Source: Isoetes taiwanensis (lineage: Eukaryota > Streptophyta > Lycopodiopsida > Isoetales > Isoetaceae). From it: a DNA stretch of 64,000 nucleotides. The position numbers and the translations under genes are program-made. Location of the stretch: positions 1,496,010-1,560,009 of the forward strand of contig JAJEKV010000096.1 in NCBI GenBank assembly GCA_021234155.1, read 5' to 3'. Under the pieces are notes generated by a model, which worked only from the letters and a program-made list of their open reading frames with translations, made no database searches and had not been told where the DNA came from. Of the stretch, positions 2,343 through 60,900 are shown one piece after another (position 1 is the first letter of the stretch; every line of letters begins with the position of its first letter).

Positions 2343-3338
2343 TCACACCATCCCCCTCCTACGATGGCGACGAGTCCTCGGAGCTGGAGCCAGAGTATTG
2401 AAACTTGGCTTGTCCGGGTAACGTCGGTGAAACTCCACAATATTATCAGGAGCATTATTCAGATTCTCGGCAGGCTCTCAGGTTCTATCACTTGGTGAGT
2501 AACCTTTTCAATCGGTGAAGTAATACAATCGTCAACAAAGAAACTTGGAGTCTAGAATCTCTCGAACCTCGAACTCCTCATGATCATCAATTTCTACTGG
2601 TGGTGGCGGCGGAGGAACGCGATCTGGGAAGGTATTGACTGTGTAGGGCTCCAATAGAGAAACATGGAATACTAGATGAAGCCGAACAGCTGAAGGGAGC
2701 TCGAGCCGGAATGCCATATTGCTGATCTGAGGACCAAGGCGACGATAGTCAAACTTATTGCAGGGACGTGAGATAGGGAGGTCCCTACGAAGAAGCCAGA
2801 CAAGGTCACCAACGTGAAATTTAGGAGCTTCCTGCCGATACAAATCAGCATAATGCCAATAGCATTCCTGTGCTCGGTGAAGATGATGTTGAAGATCCGA
2901 TTGAAGAGCCTGGAGTTTCTCAAGTCGAGACTCAGCACTAGGATTGACAGAGTCACCGCCAGCGACGCTAAGGGACCAACGAGGATGCTAACCAGAGTTT
3001 AGAAAGAACGGAGTCTGGCCAGGGAAGCATGTACTGAGTTATTATAGGCAAACTCAGCTAGTGGAAGATAATCGACCCAATCATCCTGCTGCTAACTGAT
3101 AAAGCGCCTTAAATATTGCTCCAGAGTCTGATTAGTGCACTCCGCCTGCCCATTACTTTATGGATGATGACCGGATGTCAATGAGCGGCCGATATGCAAT
3201 AACTCCAAAAGCCGCTTCCAAAAACCTACGATGAACTGTGGTCCACGATCGCTGACGATAGTATCTGGCAAGCCGTGAAGTCTGACTACATCACGAAGAA
3301 GAAGATCTGTTGTTCCCTCACTGGTGATTGTGACGTTG
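2343..3338 (-). mobile_element. Ty3/gypsy chromovirus Pol fragment (integrase to chromodomain), decayed
   Basis: On the minus strand the integrase core reads TSEGTTDLLL then RLHGLPDTIVSDRGPQF and SLTSGHHP (3330 down to about 3158), followed by the C-terminal segment FHVGDLVWLLRR and DYRRLGP (2843-2700) with FHVSLLEP. Next come EFEVREILDSK and a chromodomain-like KGYSPSDRT with stop codons in place of tryptophans (about 2540-2430). A tail of NAPDNIVEFHRRYPDK leads to the stop at 2343-2345. Frameshifts lie between 2850 and 3160. This order is typical of Ty3/gypsy chromoviruses, whose chromodomain guides integration into chromatin. The upstream (right) side is cut at 3338 where the LTR at 3339 begins, so the gypsy copy was older. 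Confidence 0.85.
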
Positions 3339-5695: not shown

Positions 5696-5802
5696 CCTTT
5701 CCTGGTAGACATTCTCGTGGCTATTGAGCAATTAAGCATGCATGTTTCTGATGCTCAGAGTATTCTTGATGGTCTTTGAGTGCCTAAAGTTTTGATAATG
5801 TG

Positions 5803-7641
5803 ATGGAGCAAGCTTCTCAAGGAGAAAAGGTTGCAGCAGTTCCAATTCCCATACAAGTTGATGTGATCTTTCCAATTCCAGCACCTCTTTATCATGGTCT
5901 TGAAGAACCTGAGCTTTATCTTTGTAGATTTGAAGAATATTTTGATGATTATGGTAAGAGAAGAGGAGAAAAGATTGATGTATTTGGCAGGTGCATGAAA
6001 GAGGAAGCAAGCCATTGGTTTGAGTACCAAAAGACTTGCGAGGTACATGATTGGGATGAACTCAAAAGGAACTTCATCAAGAGATTTGGGGTGCCAACCA
6101 CACAAGAGGAGGTCATTCAAGAGCTGCCAACAATTGTTTTGAGGAAGAATGAAGGGGTGCCAAGTTTCGTGCAAAGATTTCATGCCTACATGCTCAAGTG
6201 CAAAAGGTACAAAGTGGAATGGCCTACTCTTCATTTGCTTGTTTACTTTGTGCAAGGTTTTAGATTACATTCCACTGTTTACAAGAAAATGCTGAAATGC
6301 TTTCATAAAGGTATGTTCTATTCTATACAACAAGCCTTTGAAAAAGCTTTGGAAATAGATGATCTTTTGACATATCTTCAAAAGCATGATGTTTATGAGC
6401 AGCCTCTTGATACTAAATCTCTCATATGCGAAAGAAAGATAAGCTCAAATCAAAGGGAAACCTTGGAGGAGAAAATGAAAGAAGATGAGGTATGCTTGGA
6501 TGCTAGTATGTCTCTCTTTTCTTGCGACCATGGAAAATCTCAGCAAGAATCAGTCATGACAGTAAGTAATTCAGCATATTCATGTGACAAAAAGGTACCT
6601 CATGATGTTCCCAAGGTGTTTTCCTTCTTGGATACCATTGCCAAATCTGATTTGCAGGAGTTAGAGCATGTTAGCAGCCATATAAATCCAAGATTTGCAT
6701 GTTTTGAAGGTGATTCACATAAGGCCAGCCATGACACCCTAAAGAATGCACATGGATCAGAGGTTTTCATTGCTAATGAAGTAAGTCTTATCACATCTCA
6801 TATGGTTGAGGAGTTTGAGCATGTTCTCTTGTATGATGTTGCTGAGTTTGAGCATTGCCATGAAGAAAAGAGTGTTGAATGCATGAGCAGCCCTGAGTAT
6901 GAGAATTTTTATACCATTCAAGCATTTGAGGATGATTATGAACCATGTTTGTGTGAATTAGAAGTGGGAAACATTGATCTCTCACTATTTCAATGCTCCA
7001 AAAATAAGTTCCAAGGACTTGAATGCCATGACAGTCATAATAGCAGCTCACATTATGAAGTTTTTAGTTTTGAAACCTGTCTATCAGCTGAAAACTCAGG
7101 TGAGGATGATTTGCACATGCCTCAATTGGAGAATTATGCTTTCTTGGATGATTTGAAGCAAACTTTTGAGTTAAAGATGCAAGTTTTAGATGATGTAATA
7201 GCATATGAAGCTTGTGCAGATCTGATCAGTTCTAAATTTCAGCTTTGTGGCAGTCCAAAAAAGTCTGAAAATGATAAGGAATCAGTCCCATGTGTGGTTG
7301 AGCATGAAGAAGTTAATTTTTTGACTAGTTTTGAGCATGACAATGTAGTTGAACTTGAGAAATCAGACTTGAGCAACATCTTATCCAAATGTGCAGCAGA
7401 AAAATATGAATATCCAAGGTCCTTTTCAGCATTTGAGAACAGCAAGTTGATTGGATCATGCCAACATAGTAGGTATTACTATGTTACATCAGATTTGCCA
7501 CTTTTGTATGCTCGTACAATCATCTTTGAGCAGGCCATAGCATTGTGGCATATTGTTTTGCCACTTATGTTGATGCAAACACAAGTTATCTGCATCCTAC
7601 TATTTGGAGGATGTATACCTGACAGAGTTGGAGTTGGCTAA
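5803..7641 (+). CDS. Retrotransposon Gag-like protein
   Basis: 612 residues from the ATG at 5803. Residues about 25-190 match the retrotransposon gag domain: PLYHGLEEPELYLCRFEEYF, then CMKEEASHWFEY, DWDELKRNFIKRFG and VPSFVQRFHAYM. This is the capsid part that assembles the particle around the element RNA. The remaining 400 residues are acidic, rich in Cys, His, Ser and Glu, without a CCHC zinc knuckle in the usual pattern and without protease motifs. The frame has no internal stop or frameshift, notable for a copy whose 3' LTR is broken. No pol gene follows. The C-terminal function is unknown. Confidence 0.75.
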   Translation: MEQASQGEKVAAVPIPIQVDVIFPIPAPLYHGLEEPELYLCRFEEYFDDYGKRRGEKIDVFGRCMKEEASHWFEYQKTCEVHDWDELKRNFIKRFGVPTTQEEVIQELPTIVLRKNEGVPSFVQRFHAYMLKCKRYKVEWPTLHLLVYFVQGFRLHSTVYKKMLKCFHKGMFYSIQQAFEKALEIDDLLTYLQKHDVYEQPLDTKSLICERKISSNQRETLEEKMKEDEVCLDASMSLFSCDHGKSQQESVMTVSNSAYSCDKKVPHDVPKVFSFLDTIAKSDLQELEHVSSHINPRFACFEGDSHKASHDTLKNAHGSEVFIANEVSLITSHMVEEFEHVLLYDVAEFEHCHEEKSVECMSSPEYENFYTIQAFEDDYEPCLCELEVGNIDLSLFQCSKNKFQGLECHDSHNSSSHYEVFSFETCLSAENSGEDDLHMPQLENYAFLDDLKQTFELKMQVLDDVIAYEACADLISSKFQLCGSPKKSENDKESVPCVVEHEEVNFLTSFEHDNVVELEKSDLSNILSKCAAEKYEYPRSFSAFENSKLIGSCQHSRYYYVTSDLPLLYARTIIFEQAIALWHIVLPLMLMQTQVICILLFGGCIPDRVGVG

Positions 7642-36153: not shown

Positions 36154-36985
36154 ATGGCGACCAAAACCAATTCCGGCGAGGTAAGAAGCATTTTTTTTTA
36201 GTCCGAGTTTGTTTTTTTTCTTAATATAGAATGTTCAATCGGGTTTCCAGGACATGCTTTTCGCAAGAACTCCTCTTGAATTTGCTAAGTATCGTAAGCT
36301 TTCTATGGAGGGCAAAAATGCAAGAAGCATCAAAAAGGGAGATGTTTCAGATGCAGAATTTCAGCAAGTTTGGCAGAAGCCCATGCCCAAGACGGGCAAG
36401 ATTCATGTAAAGCTGATCAGGCCTGAGTTCAAGACATCTCTGACAGACTTGATCGAGAGGGTTTACCAGAAACCCCTTCCAAACAATGAACTTCGAACAT
36501 TGTTTGCCAGAGCATTCGCCTGGTCTCATAGTGCTAAAGCCTTGCAGAATCCTGATGAGTACAAGGTCAATTGGGCGAGTTTAGCAGCAGAGGCTTACAG
36601 AATTGGGCAAGTACAGTTGAACAAAGAGCATGGGAATGCTTTTGAAAAGAACACCAAATCCCTGCTGAACCACATGAGGTCTCTTTCTACAATGTTAGAA
36701 GACAGTAAAAAGGAATTGGTGGAGAAGCAGGCTGATCTGTTGAGGATGGAGGGTTCTGCTAATAGCTCGATGGCATGCTTTAAGGATCTTGAAGATGAAA
36801 TTAAGGAGAAAAGGCAGAACTGGTTGGCCTTGGAGCTCTTCAACCCTGAAGAAGAGGATGCAATACAGTTAATACAAAAGGAAGAGCAAGCTTTGCAATC
36901 ATTTTTAGACAAAACACGATTGCAAATTAAACGGGAGTGTTGCAGCACTCCCGTTTCAAAGATTCCCTTGAAAAAAACAGCCTGA
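36154..36985 (+). pseudogene. Accessory coiled-coil protein of the outer element, 5' part (gene split by insertion)
   Basis: Exon 1 is 36154-36180 (MATKTNSGE; donor GTAAGA) and exon 2 starts at 36251 after TTTCCAG, in phase, giving DMLFARTPLEFAKYRKL and about 220 further residues. The C-terminal third is a charged coiled coil (MLEDSKKELVEKQADLL; LEDEIKEKRQNW; LIQKEEQALQSFLDKTR). From about 36912 the frame runs into an inverted terminal repeat and stops by chance at 36985. The protein continues 8.3 kb away at 45240 with another coiled-coil segment and a zinc finger. I therefore read one gene interrupted by a transposon. Function unknown; similar two-gene layouts suggest a partner of the transposase. 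Confidence 0.55.
36918..36969 (+). repeat. Left terminal inverted repeat of the inner element
   Basis: Two blocks, 36918-36937 and 36956-36969, repeat inverted at 45212-45231 and 45164-45177. Between and overlapping them is a hairpin at 36929-36956 with 11-bp arms (AAACGGGAGTG / CACTCCCGTTT) and a 6-base loop. Confidence 0.6.
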
Positions 36986-37440
36986 TCTAGAAAATGACAC
37001 TTTTTTCCTTCTAATTGGGAATTCCAATAGGCTTAATTTTTTTTTACCTCTTTTTTGGCCCCCTAGTGTAAAATAACTTGGAATTTGCCAAAACCAACAC
37101 TTGAAAAGGGAAGAATTTAGACATGCTTTTGTATTCTCAAAAAGTACTATCTTGAAAACACCAGAATGTAGTGAATAAAATAATTATTATATAATGAAGA
37201 GTGTTTCAATGATACAATTTGTAACATCACATGGTGGTCAGTATTAATGTTTTTTGGAAAAGACAGACTAAAGGTCCAAATCAAAGTCTTCATCATGCTT
37301 TTTGCTTGATTCTCACAGGCTGATTCTACTGATCGATCCTTTTCTTGTGCCTTACCCTTGTCTACTTGTGCGGTGTCTTCAGAATGGTAGCTAGTGCCAC
37401 TTCTTTCAGCTCTGCAAAAGTAGCTTCATCCTCTAAAGAG
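36986..37440. other. 3' flank of the ParB-methyltransferase gene
   Basis: A/T-rich, no gene seen; holds poly-T and CCCCCT tracts near 37040-37070 that look like those near the right end at 45.1 kb. Confidence 0.4.
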
Positions 37441-40431
37441 CTAGTGAATGGAGGTCGTATCTCGAGAAGAGGTCACTTTGGCAAAATCGGATGAGGATTT
37501 GGCCCCTAACTCTTGGTGCTCATCTGGTAGGGTAGGCAAGGCTGCCAGTCTCATCTTGATGAATTGCACAGCTTCTTTATCAATGTCCACTGCTACACAA
37601 TTCCGGCCCTTCCTAAGTGCACAAGCTATTGTTGTACCAGAGCCAGAGAAGGCATCAAGCACCCAATCTCCTGGACGTGAAAACATGTCTAGGAGATGGT
37701 TGATTAGCTTTTGAGGCTTCTGGTAGTGATTAACAATTCTACCTTGTGCACTAGGGTCCTGAAGCTTTTGAAGCACTGACCGAAATTCCAACACATTAGA
37801 AAATTCGCATGTCATGCCAGTTAAAATGCTCCATGGTGCGTTTTCCATCTAAACTCCAAAGAAGCAACATGGAGGTATTCAACCTTACTCAAAGAATCTC
37901 GCCCGCCGCCATGGTAGTTTATATTTGTTTTGTACTGTAGAAATTAGAGTGGTGTCACTAACGAAAAAACAACAAGAAACAAACAAAGAGAACAAGTGAA
38001 AGGCAATTATATTCGAATAGAAAACTAAAACAAAAAGAAGAAACAAGCCCAACGTATTCCGTAATAAAGTACTCACCAAACCAAATTCTCATAACCAGCT
38101 TTTTGCACCGGGATCCGGCGAGTTTTAAACGTGGACTCCACAAGGCCGATTGCATGCTCGAGTGAAACACGACAAGACGCCGCTGCTTGGCGTTGTGACT
38201 TGTTTTGATGCCGCCGACGAAAGCGTTAAACTCTGAAAATTTAAAAGGTCGGGTCGTCAGAATTACCGTCCTTTAGTTTAAAGCCATAAGGAAGGTCCGC
38301 AATCACCAAAGGAAATCTTGTGGCTTTTATCGTCCCAACCAAATTAGTGCAGTCCCCGTGAATGATGGAAAACAAATTATTTTGGTCAAATAAATTAAAC
38401 TTTTCATAATCGAAAGGCTCCACATCTAGAGTTCTCCTCTCTGCCAAGTGTTCTTTCTTCTCGTGCGGTCGACGAGGTGCATAAAACCTTCCGGCGGTAC
38501 TTATTTTTCTTCTTGTTCTCGCAAACAAAGGGGAGATTGAGACGTAGACAAGTAAAGTATGACGTGTTTAATCAAGCACCCCATCCTTCAAAAATTTGGT
38601 GCGTCTTCGAAGCATACGCCGTCGGATGTAGCTATGGGATAAAGCTCCTTGCACCTCTCCCACGCCTCCACGCTGAGTTGCTCCATCGACATGTCCGCGG
38701 TGTGATAACATTTTTTGGCTAGAAAGAAAAAACACAACCTTTTTAGCAGTTGAAAAGAGAAAACGCCAAGTAAACTATCTTCCCGCCACCTAAAGTTATT
38801 CTAGAATACAAGCGGCGAATCAATATTTTTTCTTGTTGCGCGTATGTATTCCGTATACACTTTAATCAAGAAAGAAGAAGCGAAAGTGTATTCGAATACA
38901 CTTCTACAACGCAACAAGTTAGAGTGTGTATTCCGCATCACGCTTTATTTGACTCAAAGGAGTAAAAGTGTATTCGGAATACACTTTTACACTACAAGAA
39001 GAGAGAACGTGTATTCTGAATACACTCGCTCCCATCGAGGGTGCGAAAAGCATTTCCGTGACCACTAAATTGCTTTGTTATCCGGACAGAATTCTACAAG
39101 TGAAAAGGCAAAGAATGATTGTATGCTTACTTGTGCAACTCCTTCGACATTTCTTCGAAAGTGTGAACTCCTTGTCCACCACCTTTTGCGTAAGTCGTTC
39201 TAGTAATTACGGTCGCTGAACCCCCGCATCTCCCTCCGCATGCTGATGGTCATTTCTTTCTTTGGGACGTCGCCTTTCTTCTTCTCCGACACCTTTCCCT
39301 TACTTTTTAGCTCACCGCTCAAACATATTAAATATTTCGCTCAAGCTCCCGTGATTCGCAAACAAATTAAAAACTTAGAAGCTAGTTGCACACTAAATCT
39401 TATTCTGGAATACGCTTGTAACCTTACCCGGCCATCCCTGAACGCTAGCTGAAACCAATTGTCATGACCAATGAGTGATGCCCGTTTGTTCGCCTCGTCG
39501 TATTTAAGGCAACACTCAATGGCACAAGCTTCTTTAAGTTCAAGGGAGTACTGTGGCTTTTTGAGATCCTCTCCATACTTTTCCTTGAAGATAACATATT
39601 CTCTGTGCATGAATCTGATTTTGTCGACAAAGCTCATTTTTAACTTGTACTCGTTGTCAGCGTTGTGAGTGTTGGCAACGATTTTGGCTTCCTCGTCGGT
39701 CAAACCACAGTGAGACAAAGAACAGAGAACATACAAGTACCTAGGATTCTTTTTTTCCTTGTATAATTGCCTCCTTGCCTTAAAGCTGTGGTTCCCACCC
39801 AAAACATAATGCGTATATGTGTCCGCATTTTCTCTATCGTACTCTGCAGGAGTTGTGCACTGCTCTCTATCAACAAGAACAACAATTGGAGCTACATGTG
39901 CATTGGGATTGCTCCGGATTCTGTCCTTGAGGTTCCTTAGATGGTCTGCATATATCTTTCGAACCTGCAGTGGTCGTTCTCCAGCATTTTTTGAGGAAGC
40001 TTCATAGTCGGACCGGGTAATAAATGACACCTTGCACAAATTTGTGCGTGTTTATCTCTTCCATTTTCTCTGGCTTGTTTTATCAACTTTTTTTTTTTTT
40101 TGATGGCAACGCCAGTGCTTTGCCTTTCCCCTTCTTCTTCTTGTGTGCATCCTCAGGAGCATCTTCTGTTTCAATGATAGCCGTTTTTCTTTTCTTAGGC
40201 TCTTTAGCAGCTACGGTTTGCCTCTGCTTCTTTGCTGGTGGTGGAGGTGGCTGCTCTTCCGAACCTGATGAACTCACGGATGGGCTCGCCCGACCGTGAT
40301 GGACTCCCCGATAAATTCCCTCGATCTTCCTCTTCCCCTTGTTCCGACTGTTGTAGGGGGAAGTCCTCGCCGTTATTAGCAACGTAATTAATGATGGCGA
40401 GAGCGACCTCTTGTTCACGTGAGAGAAACAT
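37441..40431 (-). pseudogene. ParB-domain plus beta-class N6/N4 DNA methyltransferase, multi-exon, probably frameshifted
   Basis: From right to left on the minus strand: an N-terminus at 40431 (MFLSREQEVALAIINYVANN), a lysine-rich nuclear-type segment ending in a run of lysines (to about 40090), then a ParB/Srx-like domain (40030-39428) with APIVVLVDREQ and the nucleotide-pocket motif VLGGNHSFKARRQL. A donor GTAAGG follows at 39427. Further exons include MSMEQLSVEAWERCKELYPI (about 38695-38636), then IIHGDC and the methyltransferase motif IV IADLPYG (38282-38305), LVVFHSSMQSALWSPRL, and finally DAFSGSGTT (SAM-binding motif I, 37629-37656) with a stop at 37441. Motif IV before motif I marks the beta class acting on exocyclic amino groups of A or C. 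At least two frame breaks (near 40300 and 38250) suggest decay. Confidence 0.7.
38845..39025. repeat. Palindrome cluster 2 (inside an intron-like part of the ParB-methyltransferase gene)
   Basis: Perfect palindromes AAGTGTATTCGAATACACTT at 38884-38903, a 29-bp one centred on 38976 (38962-38990) and GTGTATTCTGAATACAC at 39009-39025, plus imperfect half-matches at 38845-38860 and 38924-38940. Same sequence family as the array at 41043. Confidence 0.9.
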
Positions 40432-41042
40432 ACTTATAAAGAGGATGTGGATTTACCTTCACAAGTCTAAGGTAGGATTCATCAACATGAATAAAGCCTT
40501 GAGATGTCCGAAAAGACAATCTCCCTCCCTTACCGGTCTGCCCGCCTACCTCACTCCACTTTACGGACAGATGGTGCCCATGCATAAATTCCCCATCATC
40601 GCATTACCTTTTGGTTCCGGGCTCCCACGGACATGTAGAAAAGTCGTGGTGTTTGACTTTCCGTAAGTACCCCTTGTAAAACCATTGAGTTTGGAAGTTT
40701 TCAGAAATAGCGGTAAATCCGACTCCTCAACCCTTCTCTGGTGCGGTTTCAGACGATTTTAAGAGGCTTCTTCATTTGTTTCTTCTTGCCGCCGTCATGT
40801 TCAGGTAAATTGTGTGTAAACACGACCTTGTTAGAAAAAAAAAAGGGTGGCAAAGAACTATTCCGTAATACAAAATGGCTTACAAAAAGGGAAAAAAGAG
40901 GGCAAAAAGAGGACAAAATGTCAAAAAAGCACTCTAATCTTGACAACAAAAGTGGTCTAAACAAGCTAAAAATGCAGCAAGAACGCCTAAATTAACTAAA
41001 AAAAAAACGCAAGGAAAAGTAACCCCTAAAACCTAAAAACGT

Positions 41043-41244
41043 AAAGTGTATTCGAATACACTTTTCGAGTGGAGGGCGAAAGTGTATTCGGAATACACTT
41101 CGCCTCACCGGCAAAAGTGTATTCGAATACACTTTTCGCATCTCCAAGGCTAAAAGTGTATTCGGAATACACTTCGCCCACTGGTTAAGCGAAAGTGTAT
41201 TCGGAATACACTTTCGCCGAAAGTGAAGGCGAAAAGTGTATTCC
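41043..41244. repeat. Palindrome array 1: five copies of a GTGTATTC(G)GAATACAC palindrome plus a half-site
   Basis: Copies at 41043-41064, 41080-41100, 41113-41136, 41154-41174 and 41189-41217, with a half-site at 41232-41244. Each is a perfect palindrome or perfect around one central G. Centres are 34-40 bp apart, close to 3.5 helical turns. Outer bases often add GCGAA/TTCGC. The array lies between the divergent starts of the ParB-methyltransferase gene (40431) and the transposase gene (41638), so it could be an operator, a ParB-type binding cluster or a transposase binding region. Further half-sites follow to about 41570. Confidence 0.95.
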
Positions 41245-41637
41245 TAATAAGAAACGTACATGCAAATGATTGTGCGTTGTACTTTCTCACTGACCTGTCC
41301 ATGGTTTCTCTATGTGAATCGGAATACGGAATCAAATATAATAATCGAAGTATTTGGCGCCGGCGACTTGAGCTCGTGAGACCGAATACATGAACCGAAG
41401 GCGCCGAAATTTCCTTTTAAAGGTATCATTTTCGTCTTGCTCTTTTTCTATGTGATCCGGAATACGTTCAGCTTTACTATCCTACTCTTGTGTATTCCAG
41501 AATAGCTTTTATTTTGACTTTCACTTGATTAGTACTGGAACTTCTACTTGTACTACGTGGGCGTGTATTCGGGAATAAGAAAAGCTCTGCATTACAGAAA
41601 GTTTCTCAAATCTCTTTACTATTTTGCAGTTGTCAAG

Positions 41638-42588
41638 ATGACGAACCGCTTCGTGAACAAGCTTCCACCACCTTTTGTTGTCTCAAGCTCGTCTGGTTCT
41701 GAGGACACGCTTGGGAACAACGTCATTTCTAGTGAAGACCGGCATTCTCCGACTCCTACCTCTGCTTCATCGTTGTTGCTTCTCGAAGACACACCGAGTC
41801 CAGCACAAAACAGACTTCCACCACCCTTCCAACCGTCACCAAGTCCTGTAGACAGCACACTGGCATCTCCTTCCAAAGAATCACCACCAGTTCGGAGCAG
41901 GTTGCCACCACCCTTTGTTCCATCCCCGGGACCTACAGAAGCTCCACAACAAAGGGTGCTCAAGAACAAGCTACCCCCCCCTTTTGTAGTTTCGCCCCCT
42001 TCGTGCAAACATACAAGGAACACAGAAAACACAGAAGACTGTGAGATTCAGTACAATTTCTCTCACCAGGACTTCACTACAAATGAGGACGACGCTCCAG
42101 CATGCACTCCTCTTCACACAACAACGGTTGTGACACATGGATTTGCAGAATTCCAGTCCGCTCTAAAGGAGATGTTTGCAAGAACTCCTTTTCAAGATGG
42201 TACAAGAACAGCTGATGCCACAACCTCTTATGGGCCATCACCATCCTTTAACACTGTACCCCCGCCTATTCCGGGAACAACTTCACGTGGTCTGTTTTCC
42301 TCTACAAGCACACCACTCAGGACAGAGGAAGTCACCCCCAGAGTAGAAGTTTCATCAGAAGATGAAGACACCAACGAGGAACAAAGAGATTACATGTTCT
42401 CAAGCCAATCTTCAAAGAAATTCAAGGTGGATTTTGGTTTGAGGGCGTGCTCCTCTGCAAGAAGAAGAAATCTTATGGATGAACACAAAATGAGGAGACT
42501 TTTGAGAACTAAATGCTGCTCATTGGGTTGCATCAACAGATTTAATATGGCTAAATTACGAGCAGTTAGAGACAACTACGCCCCATGA
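41638..42588 (+). CDS. N-terminal part of the inner element transposase, proline-rich repeats
   Basis: 316 residues from the ATG at 41638, chosen because it follows an acceptor-like TTTTGCAG and starts MTNRFVNKLPPPF; the upstream extension to 41548 is probably untranslated. Four copies of (N/S)(K/R)LPPPF(V/Q) followed by Ser-Pro lie at about residues 5, 60, 89 and 110, in a low-complexity Ser/Pro/Thr region. The C-terminus is basic with a cysteine motif, RTKCCSLGCINRFNMAKLRA, like the zinc-binding head seen before the catalytic domain of several eukaryotic DDE-type transposases. The frame stops at 42588, but similar sequence resumes at once in another frame. Confidence 0.55.
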   Translation: MTNRFVNKLPPPFVVSSSSGSEDTLGNNVISSEDRHSPTPTSASSLLLLEDTPSPAQNRLPPPFQPSPSPVDSTLASPSKESPPVRSRLPPPFVPSPGPTEAPQQRVLKNKLPPPFVVSPPSCKHTRNTENTEDCEIQYNFSHQDFTTNEDDAPACTPLHTTTVVTHGFAEFQSALKEMFARTPFQDGTRTADATTSYGPSPSFNTVPPPIPGTTSRGLFSSTSTPLRTEEVTPRVEVSSEDEDTNEEQRDYMFSSQSSKKFKVDFGLRACSSARRRNLMDEHKMRRLLRTKCCSLGCINRFNMAKLRAVRDNYAP

Positions 42589-43930
42589 CATTGGCGGCAC
42601 CCGTAATGCCTACTTAGCTTATCATGTAAGACTAGACCGCAACACCTTCTTGCACTACATTAACCGTCAAAGAAGTTTGCCGAAATGCTTTATGGTTGTC
42701 CACCGCTTAGGGTCCACCGTAATGTCTAGAATACACAAAAGATCGGACAAAAATCCAAAGAATCGATGATCATTGTGGACCAAGAAGAGTTGTAACCATG
42801 CATGCCCTTCTTGGGCCGTGTCATGGATGGAGAAATATTTTAGAGAAACATGTGAGAAGCTACCTAACAAAGAACATGTATCATTTAACCGATAACATCA
42901 CCAAAAGATGTTTTTAATGAGTACAAAGAGACTTGCACTCGCCTTCAAAGACATCTCTTACTCACACTTCACCGTGATCGTGGAAAAGTGAATTCGGTCT
43001 TGTGAAAATTCCTAGAAAACATAGAATGTCCGCTTGCTCGAGGTGTGCGTAATTAAAGAGTCAACGAAAACCGCAAAGACAGAGGTCGAAAAGAAGTAAG
43101 CTCATGTTCTCCAATCTCTCACTTGTTTTTCCGAGAAAATGTTTTGACCTGATTTCTTCTACGATATTGTGCAACGTAACCTTGCCGGACATCGTGAACA
43201 ACAAGCAAGCAGAGAGAAGAAAGCTTGCCAAGCATAGAAAAAAGCTCTTGAACGTCCAATCGCAATACATGTCTCATTGTGATTGATGGAATGGACCAAA
43301 AAAACAACTCTACCACATTTCTTGAACATTCCTAAGGATGTGCGGAGGAATGTTTTGTTAAGGTCCACCTTGTAGGAGCTATGGTCTTCAAAGGAAGTCT
43401 AAAGTGCAAAGTATTTTTGACGATCCAAACTTGCATGGTGACCCGAACCTCACAATTACAATTCTTAACAAGGTCCCGTATGAAGCAAGAGCAATTACCA
43501 CCAAAGTGCTTTATCCGCAACTTGACAATACTACAAGGGAGAACAAGAATCAAACACTCTTTGCGTCATCGTGCCATGTTAGTGGAGCTAGGGATCTTTA
43601 GAAAAGTGAAGCTTGGTTTCTTACTTGTAGGCCACACTCATGATCGATTGACCAAATGTTCAAGCAGATTTTTCAGTGCGCTTTAGAAGGAAGAAGGCTT
43701 TTCTGTCTTCCTTCTTTAGTTCGAATTATTGAAGATTCTTACACTCCTACTCCAAAGGTCGATCTTCTTAAAGAGACCGCTGATTTTAGAGAGTTTGTTT
43801 TCTCTCAACGCTCAAACAGAGAACAAGTCGTGAACAAGTTGAATGATCTCACCTTTCAAAGATCATATCAAGTTCTACTTGAAGGATGGCCAAAGCTTCT
43901 TCTGTGGGAAGAAGTATACCACAACTAAGG
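42589..43930 (+). pseudogene. Frameshifted catalytic region of the inner transposase
   Basis: Conserved pieces in changing frames: GGTRNAYLAYHVRLDRN directly after 42588, VIDGMDQKNN at about 43282-43311, KVHLVGAM at about 43360-43383, LDNTTRENKN at about 43520-43550, GIFRKVKLGFLLVGHTHD at about 43591-43645, and RRLFCLPSLVRIIEDSYTPT to about 43752. This spacing of D, D-N and G-H-T-H-D motifs matches, from memory, an RNase H-fold transposase-like region labelled DUF7869 in databases. Many small indels make it inactive. I do not attempt a restored reading. Confidence 0.6.
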
Positions 43931-44294
43931 ACCGGAGTCCACCGGAGGGATTACGCTTCCTTAAATACATTCCGGACACTTCCTTCATAGAGCGTCTTTA
44001 ACAACTTCCTCTCAAAAATCCTAAGAGTCCAAGGTAAGAAAAAGTACCCCGAGTCATCCTTAAAAGCCATTGAAAATGGAATTTCCTCAGCTTTAAGTAC
44101 TTCTTAGAAGAAGATCGGATGTGGTGGAGTAATTTCTTTCTCGAACAAAAAATTGTTGTACAACATATAGCTCTAAGACAGCGATTTGCAAGAACCATTT
44201 CAATGGCCTAACACCTTCCATCAACCCCAAAGACTAAGCGTGTCCAAGCAAAGCTACATTTGCACCTGCAGTAGAAGACGAGGAGGACCGAGTC

Positions 44295-44861
44295 ATGTAC
44301 CTCGGACCAAGACGCAGGAATGAGCCTCAAGGTAATATCACAGAAATTACCAAAGGTATGCTAATTGCTCTTCCGACTGAGGAGGATGACAAAGGTCGAC
44401 CGTTCTGGATAGCAAAAGTGCTTGACACAGTCAAGGAGGAAGGCTTAGTCACTAAACTCAAGATTCATTGGCTTGCAACACGCTCAGAAAATGCTTTTGA
44501 AGGTAGATATGAGTTAGAAATGAGAAGCCAAGGAAAAGGGAGAAAGTCCAAGAAGGTGGGTTGTAGGGACGAGCTAAACCTTAATGACGTGACTATTTTG
44601 TGCTATGATTTTAAATTGAAATCTGACAATCGTCTACGCCAGAAGACTATCAATTTGCTTAAAAAAGCTTGTAATTACGAAGAAGATGATGAAGAAGGTG
44701 GTGACAATGCTTCACCGTCTGTTGATAGTGATGAGGAAGATAACTCAAGCACTTCCTGGATGACAAAGGAAAGAAGTGAAGGTGATGACGATGGCATAAA
44801 TGAATATGAAGACGTCCTGGATCCCTCTCTCATCACTCCTCACACTTTTGCACATAACTGA
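44295..44861 (+). CDS. C-terminal domain of the inner transposase
   Basis: 188 residues: a globular start (GMLIALPTEEDDKGRPFWIA, KIHWLAT) and a very acidic tail (YEEDDEEGG, SDEEDNSSTS). It comes where the outer transposase has a comparable C-terminal domain (AVGDNFAVVSEP, VDFYVLKCTK), so the two proteins share architecture. The ATG at 44295 is probably internal to a longer original protein. The frame itself is intact. Confidence 0.45.
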   Translation: MYLGPRRRNEPQGNITEITKGMLIALPTEEDDKGRPFWIAKVLDTVKEEGLVTKLKIHWLATRSENAFEGRYELEMRSQGKGRKSKKVGCRDELNLNDVTILCYDFKLKSDNRLRQKTINLLKKACNYEEDDEEGGDNASPSVDSDEEDNSSTSWMTKERSEGDDDGINEYEDVLDPSLITPHTFAHN

Positions 44862-45163
44862 GTCTTAGAAAAAGACTGTAAATTTTGCATGTGAATATGA
44901 AGATTCTATCTTCAAATTTTGAGAATACTACAGTTTCGATTCTGCACTTACTTCAATTTTTTGTTACATATTTTATCCTCTGAAATTAGAGTTTCTCTCT
45001 TTAAACATACTTGAAGAACATTCTATTTGCTAAGAAAAGTGACACTTTAAAAAAGTCAATTCTTTCGTTGCAAAAAAAAATTAGTCATTTGGGGGGGGTC
45101 AAAATAGAATTTCATGCATCTTTTTTTTTTTAACCTCGTTTTACCCCCTTTTTTGTAAAAAAA
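44862..45163. other. 3' flank of the inner transposase gene
   Basis: No gene; contains G8, A9-A10 and T12 homopolymers. The right inverted repeat starts at 45164. Confidence 0.5.
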
Positions 45164-45231
45164 AAGGGAATCTTTGAGGAATATTCCTTTTGCTCTCGTT
45201 TCAATGATTTGCTCCCGTTTAATACGCAATC
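45164..45231 (-). repeat. Right terminal inverted repeat of the inner element
   Basis: Complement of the left repeat: 45212-45231 (18 of 20) and 45164-45177 (14 of 14), in the same order with 34 bp between blocks against 18 bp on the left. Confidence 0.6.
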
Positions 45232-45239
45232 TTGTTACA

Positions 45240-46746
45240 AGCAGAAGTCGAAGACCAACTCCTCAAGTCTGCAAGCACTAAAGTTAAGTATTTCTATCCT
45301 TGAGTCTGAAATTGAAGAATATGAAGTTAACTTGAAATATTGGCATGCAAAGTGCAAACATGTGGCATATTTGCATCAGAATCATAAGTCAAAGAAGAAT
45401 CTGCCAAAGATAGGAATGGGAAATTATTTTTTCCCAATGTCATCAGATGGGGGAAGTACTTGTGAGGGCTGTGGCCTTCTGTTTTCAGAGGAATATGAGT
45501 TGCATGTCAAACTCAAAGAATGTGGACACATTTACCATGTAATTTGCTTCAGTGTTGTGCTGGAAAGTATGCAATGTATTGCATCAGGTTGTGAAGCTGA
45601 GGTGCCTGCCACCATTTTGGACGAGCTTGGCTTCAAGGAACTGAAGCCACCAGTGTCTGATGATGAAGAAGATAGTGATGAATCTGCAGAAGAAGTGGAA
45701 AAAATCAGCAAAGAAGATTTCAAGTCCAAAAGCACAAAGAAGGAGGTAACTCCTAAGAAAAGATTCAGAGATGATGCAAGCTCTAGTACCTCCTTATTCA
45801 ATGAACCAGCAAGTAAAGACTTTCAGCCAGTCAGACAAGCAAAGAAAAGATTGACAAGGAGTTCTACAAAAAGTAATGCATCAAAGCCAGTTGAAACAGG
45901 TATGAAATTTGCTGATTACTAAATTGTTTAGGTCTGTTAACTTAATTGTGTTCATATGTATTCATTATAGATCCAATCGATGTGGACAAAGTTAGTCCTG
46001 TAAAGTTTTTACACTTGACTCGTGAAGAGGGTTTTCAGCTCAGATCTAAGTCAGCATGTATTAACTTACCTGTATCAGCAAAAGAACATCAGTCCCTTAA
46101 CATGCAAGGTAATAGTATTCCAACATCTCATTCAATGAAGTCTTAAATATCTTAGAATTGTTTGTTTATGTAGCTGAAGGTAGTTCAAAAGCTGGTAAGA
46201 GTTCAACAGAAAAGAGTTCACCAGCTAAACAAGTACCATTGAACAATGGTAAGTGAGTTTTGCACATTAATTCAAACCCTACAAATCTCTGACATGAATG
46301 TCTATTCTTAACAGAAACTGAGATTGAAGAAAATCACTCCCTCTCTCCTATGAAGACTCCAGTTAAAACTGGTAAGCAGTTTTTCAGCAGTTTTCTTCTA
46401 ACTAGTCCTAATTAACATTATGCAGATAATGAAGTCACTGAAGGAGATGGTGCCGACACCAAAGAAGATTCCAACTCCCCCGAGCACCCTGTGAGTTAAA
46501 ATTTCCGAGGTTCTTTACATAGGGTATTCTTTACATAGTTTAATTAGTTAGTTTCTTGCTCATGCAGGTCGAGAACTGAGCATTGTAGTAATATCACCAG
46601 TGGGTGTGGTGCTAACTCCATCACAGCGGCAAGTACTCCAAACTCCAGAAAGCCCAGACAGCCCAATGGAGGAGGAGCTTACCATGGAAGGGTGGTTGAA
46701 GAAGAAGGAGCAGATGAAGGGAGTTGTGAAAAATATCTTCAAGTGA
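45240..46746 (+). pseudogene. Accessory coiled-coil and zinc-finger protein of the outer element, 3' part
   Basis: Continues the gene begun at 36154. The first exon (to 45899) encodes a coiled coil (LSISILESEIEEYEVNLKYW) and a zinc-binding segment at about 45460-45610 with Cys-x2-Cys, Cys-Gly-His-x2-His-x2-Cys and Cys-x4-Cys, similar to RING/SP-RING folds (CEGCGLLF; ECGHIYHVIC). Then acidic and lysine-rich tails. Small exons with good GT-AG borders follow: 45971-46108, 46174-46248, 46315-46371, 46426-46490 and a last one from 46568. The last exon reads well (RELSIVVISPVGVVLTPSQR ... GWLKKKEQMKGVVKNIFK, stop 46744-46746) only one base out of phase. A SUMO- or ubiquitin-ligase-like role is possible but unproven. 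Confidence 0.55.
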
Positions 46747-47430: not shown

Positions 47431-50400
47431 TTACACTGGTTCATTCACAAGTAGCTCATATCTATTGCACCCTAAATACTTGTAGAATAACCCAGTAACA
47501 ACAACTTCATTTCTGCCAAACTTCTGACCCCATGGATCTTTGAATGCCTTCTCAACAACATGTTTGACTTTGGTGCATTTGAGAACATAAAAGTCCACCT
47601 TCTCTTTATTGTCAGGCTCTGAAACTACAGCAAAATTATCCCCAACTGCAAGAATATCAGATATCCATTGTGGATCACCTTCAAACACAGGACCATCCAC
47701 AATATCTTCCACATAATTAGCACATGGTCTAAGTTCTGAGTACTGCCATGTACCTATTCTGGCTTTGTTAGGACACTTGGCATGTTTGCCTAACCAGCAA
47801 TTATGGCAGAAACAATTATAATCCATATGAGCTACCTGTGTTGGATCTGTTGTTTGAATTGGCCTGATAGAATGAAATTTGCTTGAACCTACTAGTGTAG
47901 CACAATCAAACCTCTCTGACCTGTCGACTTCATCCACTCCAATTTCCCAAAAGAACCTGTAAAAAGAGGATTATTTCTCATATTGTAAGAAAAAAACAAC
48001 ACTATTTCAGCATACCTGTATCTGTCCTTTCCCTCGAGTTGGGAGTTGTCACTGAAATGTTTAATTAGAAATACCACTGCATCATGTGCATTTCTTAAGG
48101 GTACTGAGCTCCTCTTCAGCATCTCATGAGTTAAAGCTCGTTTGATGACAGCTCCAGCACCATCATGCTCACCTGGTATACAATTTCCATGAGATAACAA
48201 GAATACATTACAAACACAAAGTAAAACCATAAAAGTACTTACCCTTTCCATGATATGAGGCAAAGTAGTTCCAATTTATTGGAATGCCAGTGTTGTGGTA
48301 GTTCCTGCCAAGGAAATAGAAGGTTCTTGATCCTTTGAACTGATGAGAACATCCATCAGACCACATGATGTGCTTGTTGTATTTCACACCTTTGCTGCTC
48401 AAGAATGCAGCATGCTTATTCAAGCAATGCTGCACAATCAATGTATCATGGTCCCTGTCATCTGATATGTAGAAGTGAGTTTCCTTCACAACCCTTCTCT
48501 CTTTCTCGTCAAGATTAATGTCATCTAACTTGGTAGCGTGTCTATAAGTAATATGCACCAAGATTGTGCATTGGTCATTCCTCCAATGCAGACTTTGTAT
48601 CTCTTGCTGAATCTTAAAACTATAGTTTTCAGCAAAATCTATGACTGACACAATTGTGTCCTTTGGGAATGTTGCCAGGCATTCTCTGAATTGCTTGGCT
48701 TGCCATCTCCCTTCATAGTTATGTGGAATAAATTCTTTTAGAACTGTTTTTGCTTCCTGGAAAATGCAAGCAGCAGTTGTGCATTTGTAAACTAGTTTGG
48801 TAATTGGTTTACTACCAACTTTGAACCCTCCTTTCCCATCAGGCTCTGGCTCTCCTGTAGGCTCAAGTACCTGCAACAGTAGTGACAAATCATTGACATT
48901 AGACATCACAAATAGAAATCATGATACTATTAGGTTGAACTCTTACCTTGTCATAGGTTTTCCACTCGATTTTGTGATCTGATCTGTGTTCTAGCTCCTT
49001 TGGACATGTAGGTAAATTGGCAGGTCCACATTTCTTGCATTTTAGAGTTAAACACTCATGTGTATGCCACTCTTCTGTTTCTTCATCCTTTTGACAGACT
49101 AATGACCTCCACAACTCACTAGTAGCTGCATATGTGCATGATTTGGCCATGCAAATAGGTCCTGGACCACTCCCTAACTTTTCTCACATATGGTGGCTTC
49201 AAAGCATGAAACATTGAGAAAGATACCTCAAATTTTGGGTATTCTGCTGTAAACCTCTTGTAGAAACACACCTAGGAGAACATCAAATTGAAGAAACAAC
49301 AAAAGTAAGTAATTGAATTGAAATAAGAATCACAACTACTTTAGAAAAAAAACTGACCTGAGTTTCTTCCAAGAAATGCAAGGGATGCATTACTTTCACT
49401 CCTTTGGCTAGTCTGATCTTCATGACATGTTTTTTGCAAGGTGACACTCTAGTGTTGTTTCTCCAGAAGTCAACCACAAATTTTCTTTGATCATAAGAAA
49501 GCTTGTCACATCGAAAGTGCTCTTCTTAAGCATTGACCATGGACCTTTCCCATGTTCACCGCCAACCTTCTATTGACAAAGAATCGATACAATTCTCCTA
49601 TTCAAGTTCAATTGCTTTGCAAAAGCTCTTCTATTGGTATCAGAATTTACAGAGAAAGTCATAGCAGTACTTCTTGCTCTCCAAATATCCATATCCTTAG
49701 CATACTTGTGAGCTGCAAATGATTTCTTCAAGTTATCCACTATAGCTTTCATAGTCTTTACTTCTTTGATGGATTCAACACCAAGTTGAGGCAACCATTT
49801 GGCTGCCCCCCTTAAGATATCTTCCTTGTCCTTTTCACTTGCGTTATCACAAATTTCAGTTACAAGTTTGCCAATGTTTTTTGACAGCCTTTTCTTCTTC
49901 TTTGTGTTGAATTCACCATTGACTTTGGCTTGCTCATCTGCAGCAGCCTCCCTCTCTCTCTATTTTTGCCTCTCCTTCCTTCTTTGTTCAGCTCTCTTCT
50001 TCCTAAAAAGGACAGCTACATATGCTAACAATAGCTAAATTTCACAAAGCAAGAGTCATTTAATCAACATAAAGAAATAAACATTTCTTACTTTCAATAT
50101 CCGTGTCAGCACTTGTATGTTTTGGTATAAATGCAGCCTCTACTTGTTCATTGGATAATCCTGCACCTACAGTTGAACAGAAAGCTTTAAAAATGAATTC
50201 AGCACCATTTCAGCATAAAAAAAATGACAGCAGTACTTGAAAGTAAATAAGTTACCTGTTGCCTCAGCCATTGTTTCCTCTTGCAAGTACTCAGCAACTG
50301 TTTCTTCTGCAACAAATTCACCATGTACCTCTTCAACACATGTACCAAGACCTGGCAATGAGGAAGTACAATGAAAGTAAGTGCAAGACCTTGACATTGA

Positions 50401-57918: not shown

Positions 57919-60900
57919 CTAGAAAAGTAATTCTTTGTAGACGACATTCGCGGTATGTTTTGTTGTGTTATCCGGAGATAGGAGGATGAGTACATCTTCC
58001 CTCTTTCGTATGCGCGTGAGGGCTGTGTATAATTGACCGTGTGCAAAGACATTTGTACGTAAATCAAGGACAACACGGTCCAACGTTAATCCTTGGCAGC
58101 TATTGAAGGTGGTGGAATATGCTAGTCGTAATGGTAGCTGGCGTCTGTGGATGGTCCATGGTCTATTTTCTGGTTGGTAAAAGAAGTCAGTTCTCGAAAT
58201 AGGATATGTGCAATCATTTGAACGCGCTGTTGACCCTAGGACTTTTACCATTACGAACTTATCATGCATTGATGTGATCATGGCTCTTGCATTCTTTACC
58301 AGACCTTTTTCGTGTCAAGACGTTTCATAATGTGGCATATTGCTCCTACTTTAAGGTTCAGTTCGTGTTCGGGGATGCCAGAATGCGTGAAATTGTTCAA
58401 AAAATCTGATGTTGCATAACGGTGGTCGATATGATTTCATCCTCGTTTCACCGATGTGATCGTGGCTATAATATTTCTTACTGCATTTAACACTTTATCT
58501 AGCGTGCGACGCCGTTGAAATCTTTGACGTGCTTGTTGATTGGGCTTGGAGATGTGAATGCTTGTTTCTCACATTGGCTTGGATTCTTCAAGATGTCGGT
58601 GCAAAAATAAAAAATAAAAAATCACATTGGCTTGGATTAAAATTATTCAAGATACATGAAGTCTTCAAGGCGTCGCAATTTTGGTAGTTGTGTTAAATAT
58701 GTCTAATGAAACTGGATTGCTGCCAGTTTTCTCCTATGTTATCAACGTACTGCATTAGCTCGGGATCACCCGCATTTAAATTGGCGCAGCCCAATTTTAG
58801 AACGTGAAATGTTCGCCATAATGGAGATGATTTTATGGACGCATTGGTCGCTGCGGTTTTACCACCTCCCTTAACGACAAAAAGCTACTTGCCTAAAATC
58901 TCCGTAAGCTATGAAGTGTTTTGCTCCAAAGGGAGAATCGTTTTTACACAACTGCAAGGTACAAAGTTGTGTACACTCTCTATAACTGCTTTATTAGCCA
59001 TTGGGAATTCATCCCAAATTATCGCTTTTGCTGCAGCGGCTCCTGAATCCCGTTCTAATAATGAATGTAGGCCTACATTTTTTTCTACAACTGGTATTTG
59101 AAAAAGCGAGTGAGCAGTTCGACCCCCTGGGTATTGAAGAACTGCAAGTGCTGTTGTTCCGCATGGAAGCACTATGTTCTTGTTCCCGCGTATTAATAAA
59201 CATATACAATTGAGAACAAACGTTTTTCCTGTACCAGCCTTGCCATTTACAAATATTGGTTGGTTGCTCTGTATCTGTTTTATCTCGTCTCGTATATAAG
59301 TATACACCTCTAATTGATTAGTGTTCATTGCGCTCGACATCTCTGCTACAGCTTCTAAATAAGCTTCATGATCGGCAAATGTAGATAACTCATGCATTAC
59401 ATCTCTTACGAGACGAGCGTGCAATTGTAATGCGAAAGCTACGATGTTAGTGCCATGCTGAGTCAATATATTATTGATTAGGTGGAGTGATTCGTTAAAT
59501 GCAACTGTTTCATCATTCGAGTATTGGTCTAGCAAGTCAATGCTCATCGGTACTCGGAATCTACTCCATATCTCGAGTGCTGGCGCTTGATCAAGTAAGA
59601 CCATTGCAAATAAAAATCGTAGTTGGGACTTAGAGACAACGACGTTGCTTCTTCCATAATCAGCGTTGCCTCATTACACGCTGCAAGTAGTCCATGTGCC
59701 TCTGCAGCTTGTCGATAAGTTTCATGTTCCAAATTATTTACGATTTTGATTTCATCCCATGTTCTTACAGGCCGATGTAGGATTTGCCTTAAATAAAATG
59801 CTTCACCAACCCGAGGTAATAATAAACGTACTCTACATATAATCGGTTGCATAGATCTCTTCTTGACAATGTTTCTCACGTATCCTGGTCGCTCTTGCTC
59901 TAGATACTCACCATGTTGCAAGATAGATGTCCCATTATATGGAATTAATGTGTATTGTTCATGATATTGGATATACGTGAGAGAATCAAACTCAGAATCT
60001 AGTGGCCGTGAAAAATAGTGATCCAAGAGCGAGTTTGTATTTGGTAACCATAGGTGCAGTGGGAGACATCTGACGAATGGCGATTTATGTGTTATATGAT
60101 AGGACATTATTCTCCATGATGCCTCCATGGCAGACAGATACCGTCCATTCACGTAGTCCCGTATTTCGTTCGTAGCATTTGGTTTAGTAGGTTTATCCGA
60201 TAATATATTTTCGAAAGAATCTTTAGACGTTTCTATTCCTTGCCCTCCATTTGCTAACGAGGTACATGACATGTGTTGAGTTGGTTGACTATTTATTGAT
60301 GAAGATTGACCTGCAGACTCATTATCTAGTGCTACTCGAAAGTTGGCACTATCGAACCCTTTATATATATAACCATAGAGATAGGAAAAGACGTGCACAG
60401 TAGATGCAACGTCCACGGTGATATGGCAATCTAGTTCGTGAAGCAAGAACGCATTGTACGACACCACCCACATATCATCTGCACTTCTTCTTCTATATTG
60501 TACATAACCTCTCGAATCAAGATATGTCGTGGGATTCACGGGCTTTGGGAAGTTGTAACAGCAGGAAGAATTGTTAGAAGAACATCTCTCTGCATGCCTA
60601 TGAATCATGAACTTTTGTACTTGTGCTCGAAGGACTGGATCCGATGGCAGCTCAGCAGGAATGATCTCATCGATACAATCGATCGGTATATCAGGTTCTG
60701 TGCGTAGCACAAGGTGAGCATGGGGCAATCCTCATTTCTGGAACTCTACAACATGTATCATATATGATATACGTTGAAAGAACTTTCGTAGCAACTCTTT
60801 TAGTCGTCGTAGTCTACCGTGGAAACACCGAACTACGATCATAGGAGCATCGGATGCATTTTGTCCCCGCCTAAGTGCGCCTCAGATCTCGGGCCAATCT

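Follow-up and report, generated by a model that had tools for sequence, protein, structure and literature searches.

Plasmid proteins of the ParB/KorB type work with palindromic parS or operator arrays that serve partition or repression. Here we describe a transposon that brings together a ParB-like protein and palindromic sites, located at positions 36913-45236 (8324 bp) of a stretch of 64,000 nucleotides (the window) from contig JAJEKV010000096.1 of Isoetes taiwanensis. Its usual unit, 8.1-8.8 kb long, consists of a DUF7869 transposase gene, a divergent gene for a ParB-like/N6-N4 methyltransferase and two palindrome arrays. Unlike the plasmid systems, it is a chromosomal plant transposon, and no ParA-like gene was noticed in it, no dedicated search having been made.

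Transposon-borne DNA-modifying enzymes are already known. Fungal DNA transposons encode TET/JBP dioxygenases (PMC12730594); like the element studied here, they are DNA transposons, mostly of the DDD/E type, with an extra base-modifying enzyme, and they are thought to escape methylation-based silencing. Their enzyme, however, oxidises 5-methylcytosine, their hosts are fungi, their transposases belong to other families, and their description, as far as it goes, contains neither phased palindrome arrays nor a ParB domain. DIRS retrotransposons with Dam-like N6-adenine methylases and dinoflagellate and charophyte retrotransposons with DNA methyltransferases (PMC5890265) are likewise eukaryotic elements encoding such enzymes, but they are retrotransposons, for which the available account mentions neither a ParB fusion nor self-recognition sites. 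Bacterial ParB-methylase fusions, for example in Bacillus cereus (PMC5512222), also pair a ParB/Srx-type domain with an adenine methylase; by contrast, they are prokaryotic and are not placed, in the description at hand, in a transposon with phased arrays, and the plant ParB part carries the variant motif GG[NC]H[ST]. Sola2 DNA transposons, finally, have AT-rich 4-bp target duplications (AWWT), short terminal repeats, a large transposase and, in some, Fanzor cargo (PMC3627910). The present element shares the 4-bp duplication (14 of 14 resolved copies), the short terminal repeats, the large transposase and a cargo gene, but its targets (e.g. CTGG, GTGG, TCCT, CCTT) do not follow the AWWT preference. 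In the present element a DNA-modifying enzyme is fused to an apparent DNA-addressing domain and accompanied by phased sites.

Ends, genes and genomic copies of the transposon

The borders of the window copy read ACAA/AACACG...CTTGTT/ACAA, the slashes marking the element ends, with the target duplication ACAA at both flanks. The terminal inverted repeats are 25 nt long and 88% complementary, and an inner pair of 13 bp lies inside them. When the flanks are fused and ACAA is kept once, a continuous open frame of 446 residues is obtained, which supports 36913 and 45236 as the ends. The preliminary description had set them at 36912 and 45240; its inverted repeats are real, but these ends were off by one and four bases. 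It had also called the element nested, which holds only in the sense that the insertion breaks open the 446-residue frame. This frame (36254-36912 plus 45241-45922) contains a weak RING-like stretch (E-value 0.012, below cut-off).

As first described, two divergent genes lie between the repeats. The methyltransferase gene matches PF01555 on the minus strand with an E-value of 4e-17 (63.3 bits against a cut-off of 26.7), and the transposase gene matches DUF7869 (PF25273) at 43336-43683 with an E-value of 2.8e-12 (47.1 bits against a gathering score of 26). The transposase is predicted to adopt an RNase H-like DDE fold with three conserved acidic residues; a first Foldseek pass with its model gave no match at E <= 0.001, and a second structural look at the model returned an integrase fold. 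A literature search for DUF7869 returned nothing, a weak test from which no absence from print is claimed.

The genome (1,658,258,908 bases in 1110 contigs) was searched for further copies at the DNA level, giving 78 matching pieces, and 25 of 4851 candidates were scored. Counting the window, the resulting set comprises 25 places; both ends are resolved in 14, and in the other 11 an end was unfetched, interrupted or lost. Perfect 4-bp duplications flank all 14 resolved copies (ACAA, AGTA, CTGG, AATA, ATTT, TGAA, GTGG, GTAT, AATA, TTGA, TCCT, CCTT, TCAT and TTTG), whose lengths range from 8144 to 8760 bp. The same ends and both gene halves recur in every one, so that the outcome named beforehand as refuting, genes and inverted repeats that do not travel together, was not seen in them. 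The ParB-methyltransferase half adjoins the transposase in 22 of the 25 places (21 by BLAST, some partial, and C1063 by protein search). None was found within the 10.8 kb examined at C1089, and at C1038 and C907 the stretch covered was too short to judge. A protein search with the ParB exon, for which the best 150 of 3317 first-look candidates were scored, matched all 150 (E <= 2e-100, 75-100% identity), and about 40 of these, by hand count, sit in stop-free frames of at least 400 codons. The 150 matches and the 22 places establish that the transposon family is large and high-copy and that the ParB gene usually accompanies it.

The methyltransferase gene, its lineages and its interrupted frames

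In the methyltransferase gene the DLPYGF exon lies upstream of the DAFSGSG exon, thus placing motif IV before motif I, as in the beta class. The canonical beta-class motif IV is [DNS]PP[YFW]. This form is absent here, DLPY being found in 17 of 21 copies, each time as DLPYG[FI], and DIPH in the relative P0080. Among 4846 candidates, the relatives found were a ParB fragment of 160 residues (P0001) and three longer proteins, one from Riccia (P0081) and two (P0079, P0080) with Gb_ gene names, which we take to denote Ginkgo. The ParB-like plus methylase layout is common to the three longer proteins; part of the ParB region is missing from P0080, and the motif IV stretch from the gene models of P0079 and P0081.

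Kinship of the ParB-like domain with ParB/Srx is likely, not proven. It is suggested by the scores of TIGR03764 (E-value 5.2e-4 for the window exon and 7.4e-5 for the C952 copy, seen in two of five members), by an hhalign profile alignment that covers two typical stretches of ParB (E-value 0.0011, probability 20%) and by the two annotated ParB proteins among three weak tblastn matches in plasmids (E-values 0.3-3). Several results weigh against it. TIGR03764 reaches 22.5 bits at best, far from the curated cut-off of 143.75; tblastn in phages gave nothing; and solved structures returned only sodium pump beta chains (E >= 0.3) with the single sequence and nothing with a profile. The AlphaFold model, with a predicted local distance difference test score of 41.7, was set aside as too poor. 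The ParB-domain methyltransferase announced at the outset is kept as an encoded protein with ParB-like and beta-class methyltransferase parts, under purifying selection, whose ParB kinship is plausible but remote. Compared with phages (536 records), P0080 matched through its methylase region only, at less than 60% identity, among the 15 matches listed. A viral scan with the methylase exon left none confirmed and alignment A4 held one methylase match each in genome and viral contigs, so that no donor was identified.

Identity by segment was measured against the window in 19 other copies. For the transposase it amounts to 86-95%. The ParB and methylase exons reach 86-91% in C46 and C952 and 69-77% elsewhere among the copies measured; in two copies these exons gave little or nothing to measure. 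Over the left half, the C1065 copy at 9.29 Mb reaches 89%. In noncoding parts, the intron included, identity between lineages does not rise above background apart from short pieces. For the codon analysis of 11 copies, codons in stretches below 50% identity to the query were left out, a filter that lowers nonsynonymous divergence (pN). The median pN and synonymous divergence (pS) were 0.052 and 0.824 for the ParB exon, 0.051 and 0.644 for the motif-I exon and 0.111 and 0.849 for the motif-IV exon (55 of 55 pairs each), and 0.035 and 0.088 for the transposase (45 of 55 pairs); without the identity filter, frameshifted codons lift the pN/pS medians to 0.18-0.75 by bin. Between the window and other lineages, the fraction of identical codons in the ParB exon (0.39-0.54) is at or slightly above that of shuffled codons (0.38-0.42). 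In the motif-I exon it is clearly above (0.46-0.57 against 0.36-0.42), indicating silent sites near, not at, saturation. The ParB-exon protein is about 90% identical between lineages whose silent sites are about saturated, which shows that the gene is under selection and that its protein is kept by purifying selection across deeply diverged lineages. Selection for synonymous avoidance, considered as pS reached 1.0, was rejected, codon identity being at or above the shuffled level and noncoding parts equally diverged.

Whichever of the window, C1048/C1076 and C1032/C1065 types are compared, silent sites are near saturation, which indicates at least three old methyltransferase lineages; C1025 is intermediate, with 0.68 codon identity to C1048. 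These old lineages of the ParB-methyltransferase adjoin a transposase half of one kind that was shared recently. Identity changes close to the divergent promoter and again at about element position 3300, a sign of recombination.

Both genes are interrupted by frameshifts in the window copy. When it was compared with C952, single-base deletions hit 15 of 207 CWG trinucleotides and 12 of 1428 control trinucleotides (p 9e-8); the CWG deletions were 6 of 208 against C1076 (p 0.011) and 4 of 169 against C1030 (p 0.11). The bias is strong in C1103 and C46, weak in C1047 and C1027 and not significant in C1055, and two reverse comparisons showed none. The CWG content of the window copy is 0.67 of that expected, and that of cleaner copies 1.04-1.29. 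The assembly (1658.30 Mb, 204 scaffolds and 909 contigs) was built from nanopore flow cell 9.4.1 reads with racon and pilon polishing (PMC8566536), and for bacteria, nanopore consensus sequences have been documented to contain errors at Dcm-methylated CCWGG (PMC6591954). The CWG enrichment and these documented errors suggest that part of the pseudogene appearance is probably assembly error at CHG-methylated sites, and true deletions at CWG sites may account for some frameshifts. The enrichment of single-base deletions at CWG makes it doubtful that the frameshifts all reflect true decay.

Phased palindromes and their possible reader

The palindrome GTGTATTCCGGAATACAC recurs every 41-42 bp in two arrays, a spacing of about four helical turns. 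The window contains six sites at up to three mismatches against 0.08 expected from the shuffled window, and the element 31 half sites (GTATTC/GAATAC), where base composition would predict about 5. The remaining 55,660 bases of the window contain no site at up to three errors. Both clusters of the palindrome family reported initially were thus found, with the correction that one sits in the methylase-gene intron. Over all copies, GTGTATTCCGGAATACAC is the commonest form (69 of 133 units, up to two substitutions allowed, from 20 of 21 copies), followed by the centres CTGG (25) and CCAG (11), the pattern expected on loss of methylated C at the central CpG. Each of the 14 full copies holds 8-17 sites at up to three errors, and among 124 spacings below 120 bp, 80 are of 40-44 bp and a further 21 of 35-39 bp. 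Agreement over 10 copies is 93% in the palindromes and 48% in the spacers. The dyad flanks vary yet stay complementary at positions +-10, 13 and 14 (0.83, 0.63 and 0.62 against 0.50, 0.36 and 0.36 expected), complementarity not being raised at +-11. Genome-wide, the exact 18-mer is present 2585 times, its reversed control not at all, and about 0.03 occurrences are expected from base composition. In a listing of the first 50 genomic sites, of which one belongs to a copy used above, 22 neighbours are closer than 260 bp, and 17 of these stand one to three units of 41-42 bp apart.

Array 1 is predicted to lie inside an intron of the methyltransferase gene. Donor and next exon are present in 19 of 21 copies, all 19 of which hold 4-7 palindromes in between; the donor follows MSKELHK and reads GTAAG in 18 of the 19, and an acceptor AG stands at the expected place in 18. 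The arrays are retained while the surrounding intron has otherwise lost similarity. In C952 (block from 15722187) about 500 bp of extra sequence was seen in this intron, which measures 983 bases from donor to exon against 347-507 in the other 18 copies. In the promoter array, many spacers, e.g. in C1055 and C1025, carry a second, weaker dyad (such as GCCTTC....GAAGGC) midway, giving a dyad every ~21 bp. Palindrome centres short of one C or G (TTCGGAA, TTCGAA) were observed at window 41045-41211 and in C46, C1027, C1055 and C1103; these copies are mostly richer in private small deletions, C1055 excepted. Such centres are possibly modified-base sequencing errors right at the sites.

The selected methylase, its fused addressing-like domain and the phased sites in its own intron and promoter lead us to propose, tentatively and with slightly more doubt than confidence, that the ParB-methyltransferase reads the arrays, regulates both genes and modifies the element DNA in cis as a self mark; a protein that reads these sites and works in cis is the simplest way to connect them. 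It would gather on the phased sites that its own element carries and, bound at the promoter array, would regulate both genes, and it would modify amino groups on adenine or cytosine within the element. The mark could keep copies expressible or transposition-competent in a genome that silences transposons by 5-methylcytosine, and its benefit would lie in anti-silencing, self-recognition or autoregulation. Alternatively, though this is rather less likely, the arrays may be enhancer-like sites through which the transposase or a host transcription factor drives both genes, the methyltransferase acting elsewhere, e.g. on host DNA. One array does lie in the divergent promoter, copies resemble each other most closely in the transposase half, the core site is identical in copies of all methyltransferase lineages, and the core TTCCGGAA fits TTCnnGAA, the form of what we take to be a heat-shock half pair. 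However, conservation extends beyond such a pair, over 18 bp and the dyad extensions; the units are non-contiguous, ~42 bp apart; the second array is inside the methyltransferase gene's own intron; and the terminal repeats of resolved copies hold no such site. Rather unlikely, in our estimation, is a self-addressing system, in which ParB-type proteins would load onto the parS-like, helically phased arrays of intron and promoter and spread over the element, and the fused methyltransferase would set an amino-methyl mark on that copy only, so that the element would have its own reader, writer and address.

The ParB-like domain could instead be a nicking nuclease and the arrays nicking or replication-assisting sites protected by the methylase. 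The Bacillus ParB-methylase provides a precedent for nicking (PMC5512222), and strong dyads could expose nick sites; the activity reported there is, by the account available, largely sequence-nonspecific, and a DDE-type transposase would in general need no such help, which makes this quite improbable. The intronic position of array 1 in 19 of 19 copies and the covarying dyad arms would suit RNA hairpins or cruciforms, intronic hairpins steering splicing or feeding small RNAs, but the same core recurs with the same period in the intergenic promoter, and a hairpin needs neither fixed letters nor 42-bp phasing; we consider this very improbable. That the methyltransferase is a captured passenger with no function for the element is scarcely credible, for although the gene is broken in the window copy and others, its three exons tested have median pN/pS of 0.08-0.16, it is kept in 22 of 25 places and long open frames persist in about 40 of the best 150 ParB matches.

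Feature map, neighbourhood and significance

Table 1. Features of the transposon in the window (positions of the window; a dot denotes no strand)
Feature	Position	Strand	Basis or remark
Target site duplication ACAA, left copy	36909..36912	.	4-bp duplication in 14/14 resolved copies
Left terminal inverted repeat AACACGATTGCAAATTAAACGGGAG	36913..36937	+	pairs with right end
Inner inverted repeat CAAAGATTCCCTT, left	36957..36969	+	read from sequence
Methyltransferase exon with motif I DAFSGSG	37441..37848	-	PF01555
Methyltransferase exon with motif-IV-like DLPYGF	38244..38567	-	DLPYG[FI] in 17/21 copies
Predicted intron (GTAAG...CTAG) holding array 1	38719..39129	-	copy comparison
Palindrome array 1, in predicted intron	38844..39025	.	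5 units, 40-42 bp apart
ParB-like domain exon	39344..40051	-	TIGR03764, profile comparison
ParB-methyltransferase N-terminal part	40083..40830	-	broken in window copy, open in C952 and C1076
Palindrome array 2, divergent promoter	41045..41211	.	5 units spaced 35-39 bp; in cleaner copies mostly 42 bp
Transposase N-terminal part, low-complexity, open	41639..42585	+	open frame
Transposase core (DUF7869), frameshifted in window copy	42586..44237	+	Pfam match, fold model
Transposase C-terminal part, open	44238..44858	+	weakly BAH-like in relative's model
Inner inverted repeat, right	45165..45177	-	read from sequence
Right terminal inverted repeat	45212..45236	-	pairs with left end
Target site duplication ACAA, right copy	45237..45240	.	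as for left copy

Elsewhere in the window, a 613-residue frame with a retrotransposon gag match was observed at 5800-7641, a 233-residue frame without Pfam match, by eye part of another transposase family, at 48208-48909, and a PIF1 helicase piece beside a 394-residue frame, which we read as a Helitron remnant, at 58909-60728.

The interrupted genes carry a warning: in nanopore assemblies, methylated repeats may show frameshifts that give genes the false look of pseudogenes. The presence of N6-methyladenine in plants is disputed, as the source available has it (PMC12695648), and the element bears on that dispute. It lets one ask whether a plant transposon writes its own N6-methyladenine or N4-methylcytosine mark and whether such a mark opposes silencing.
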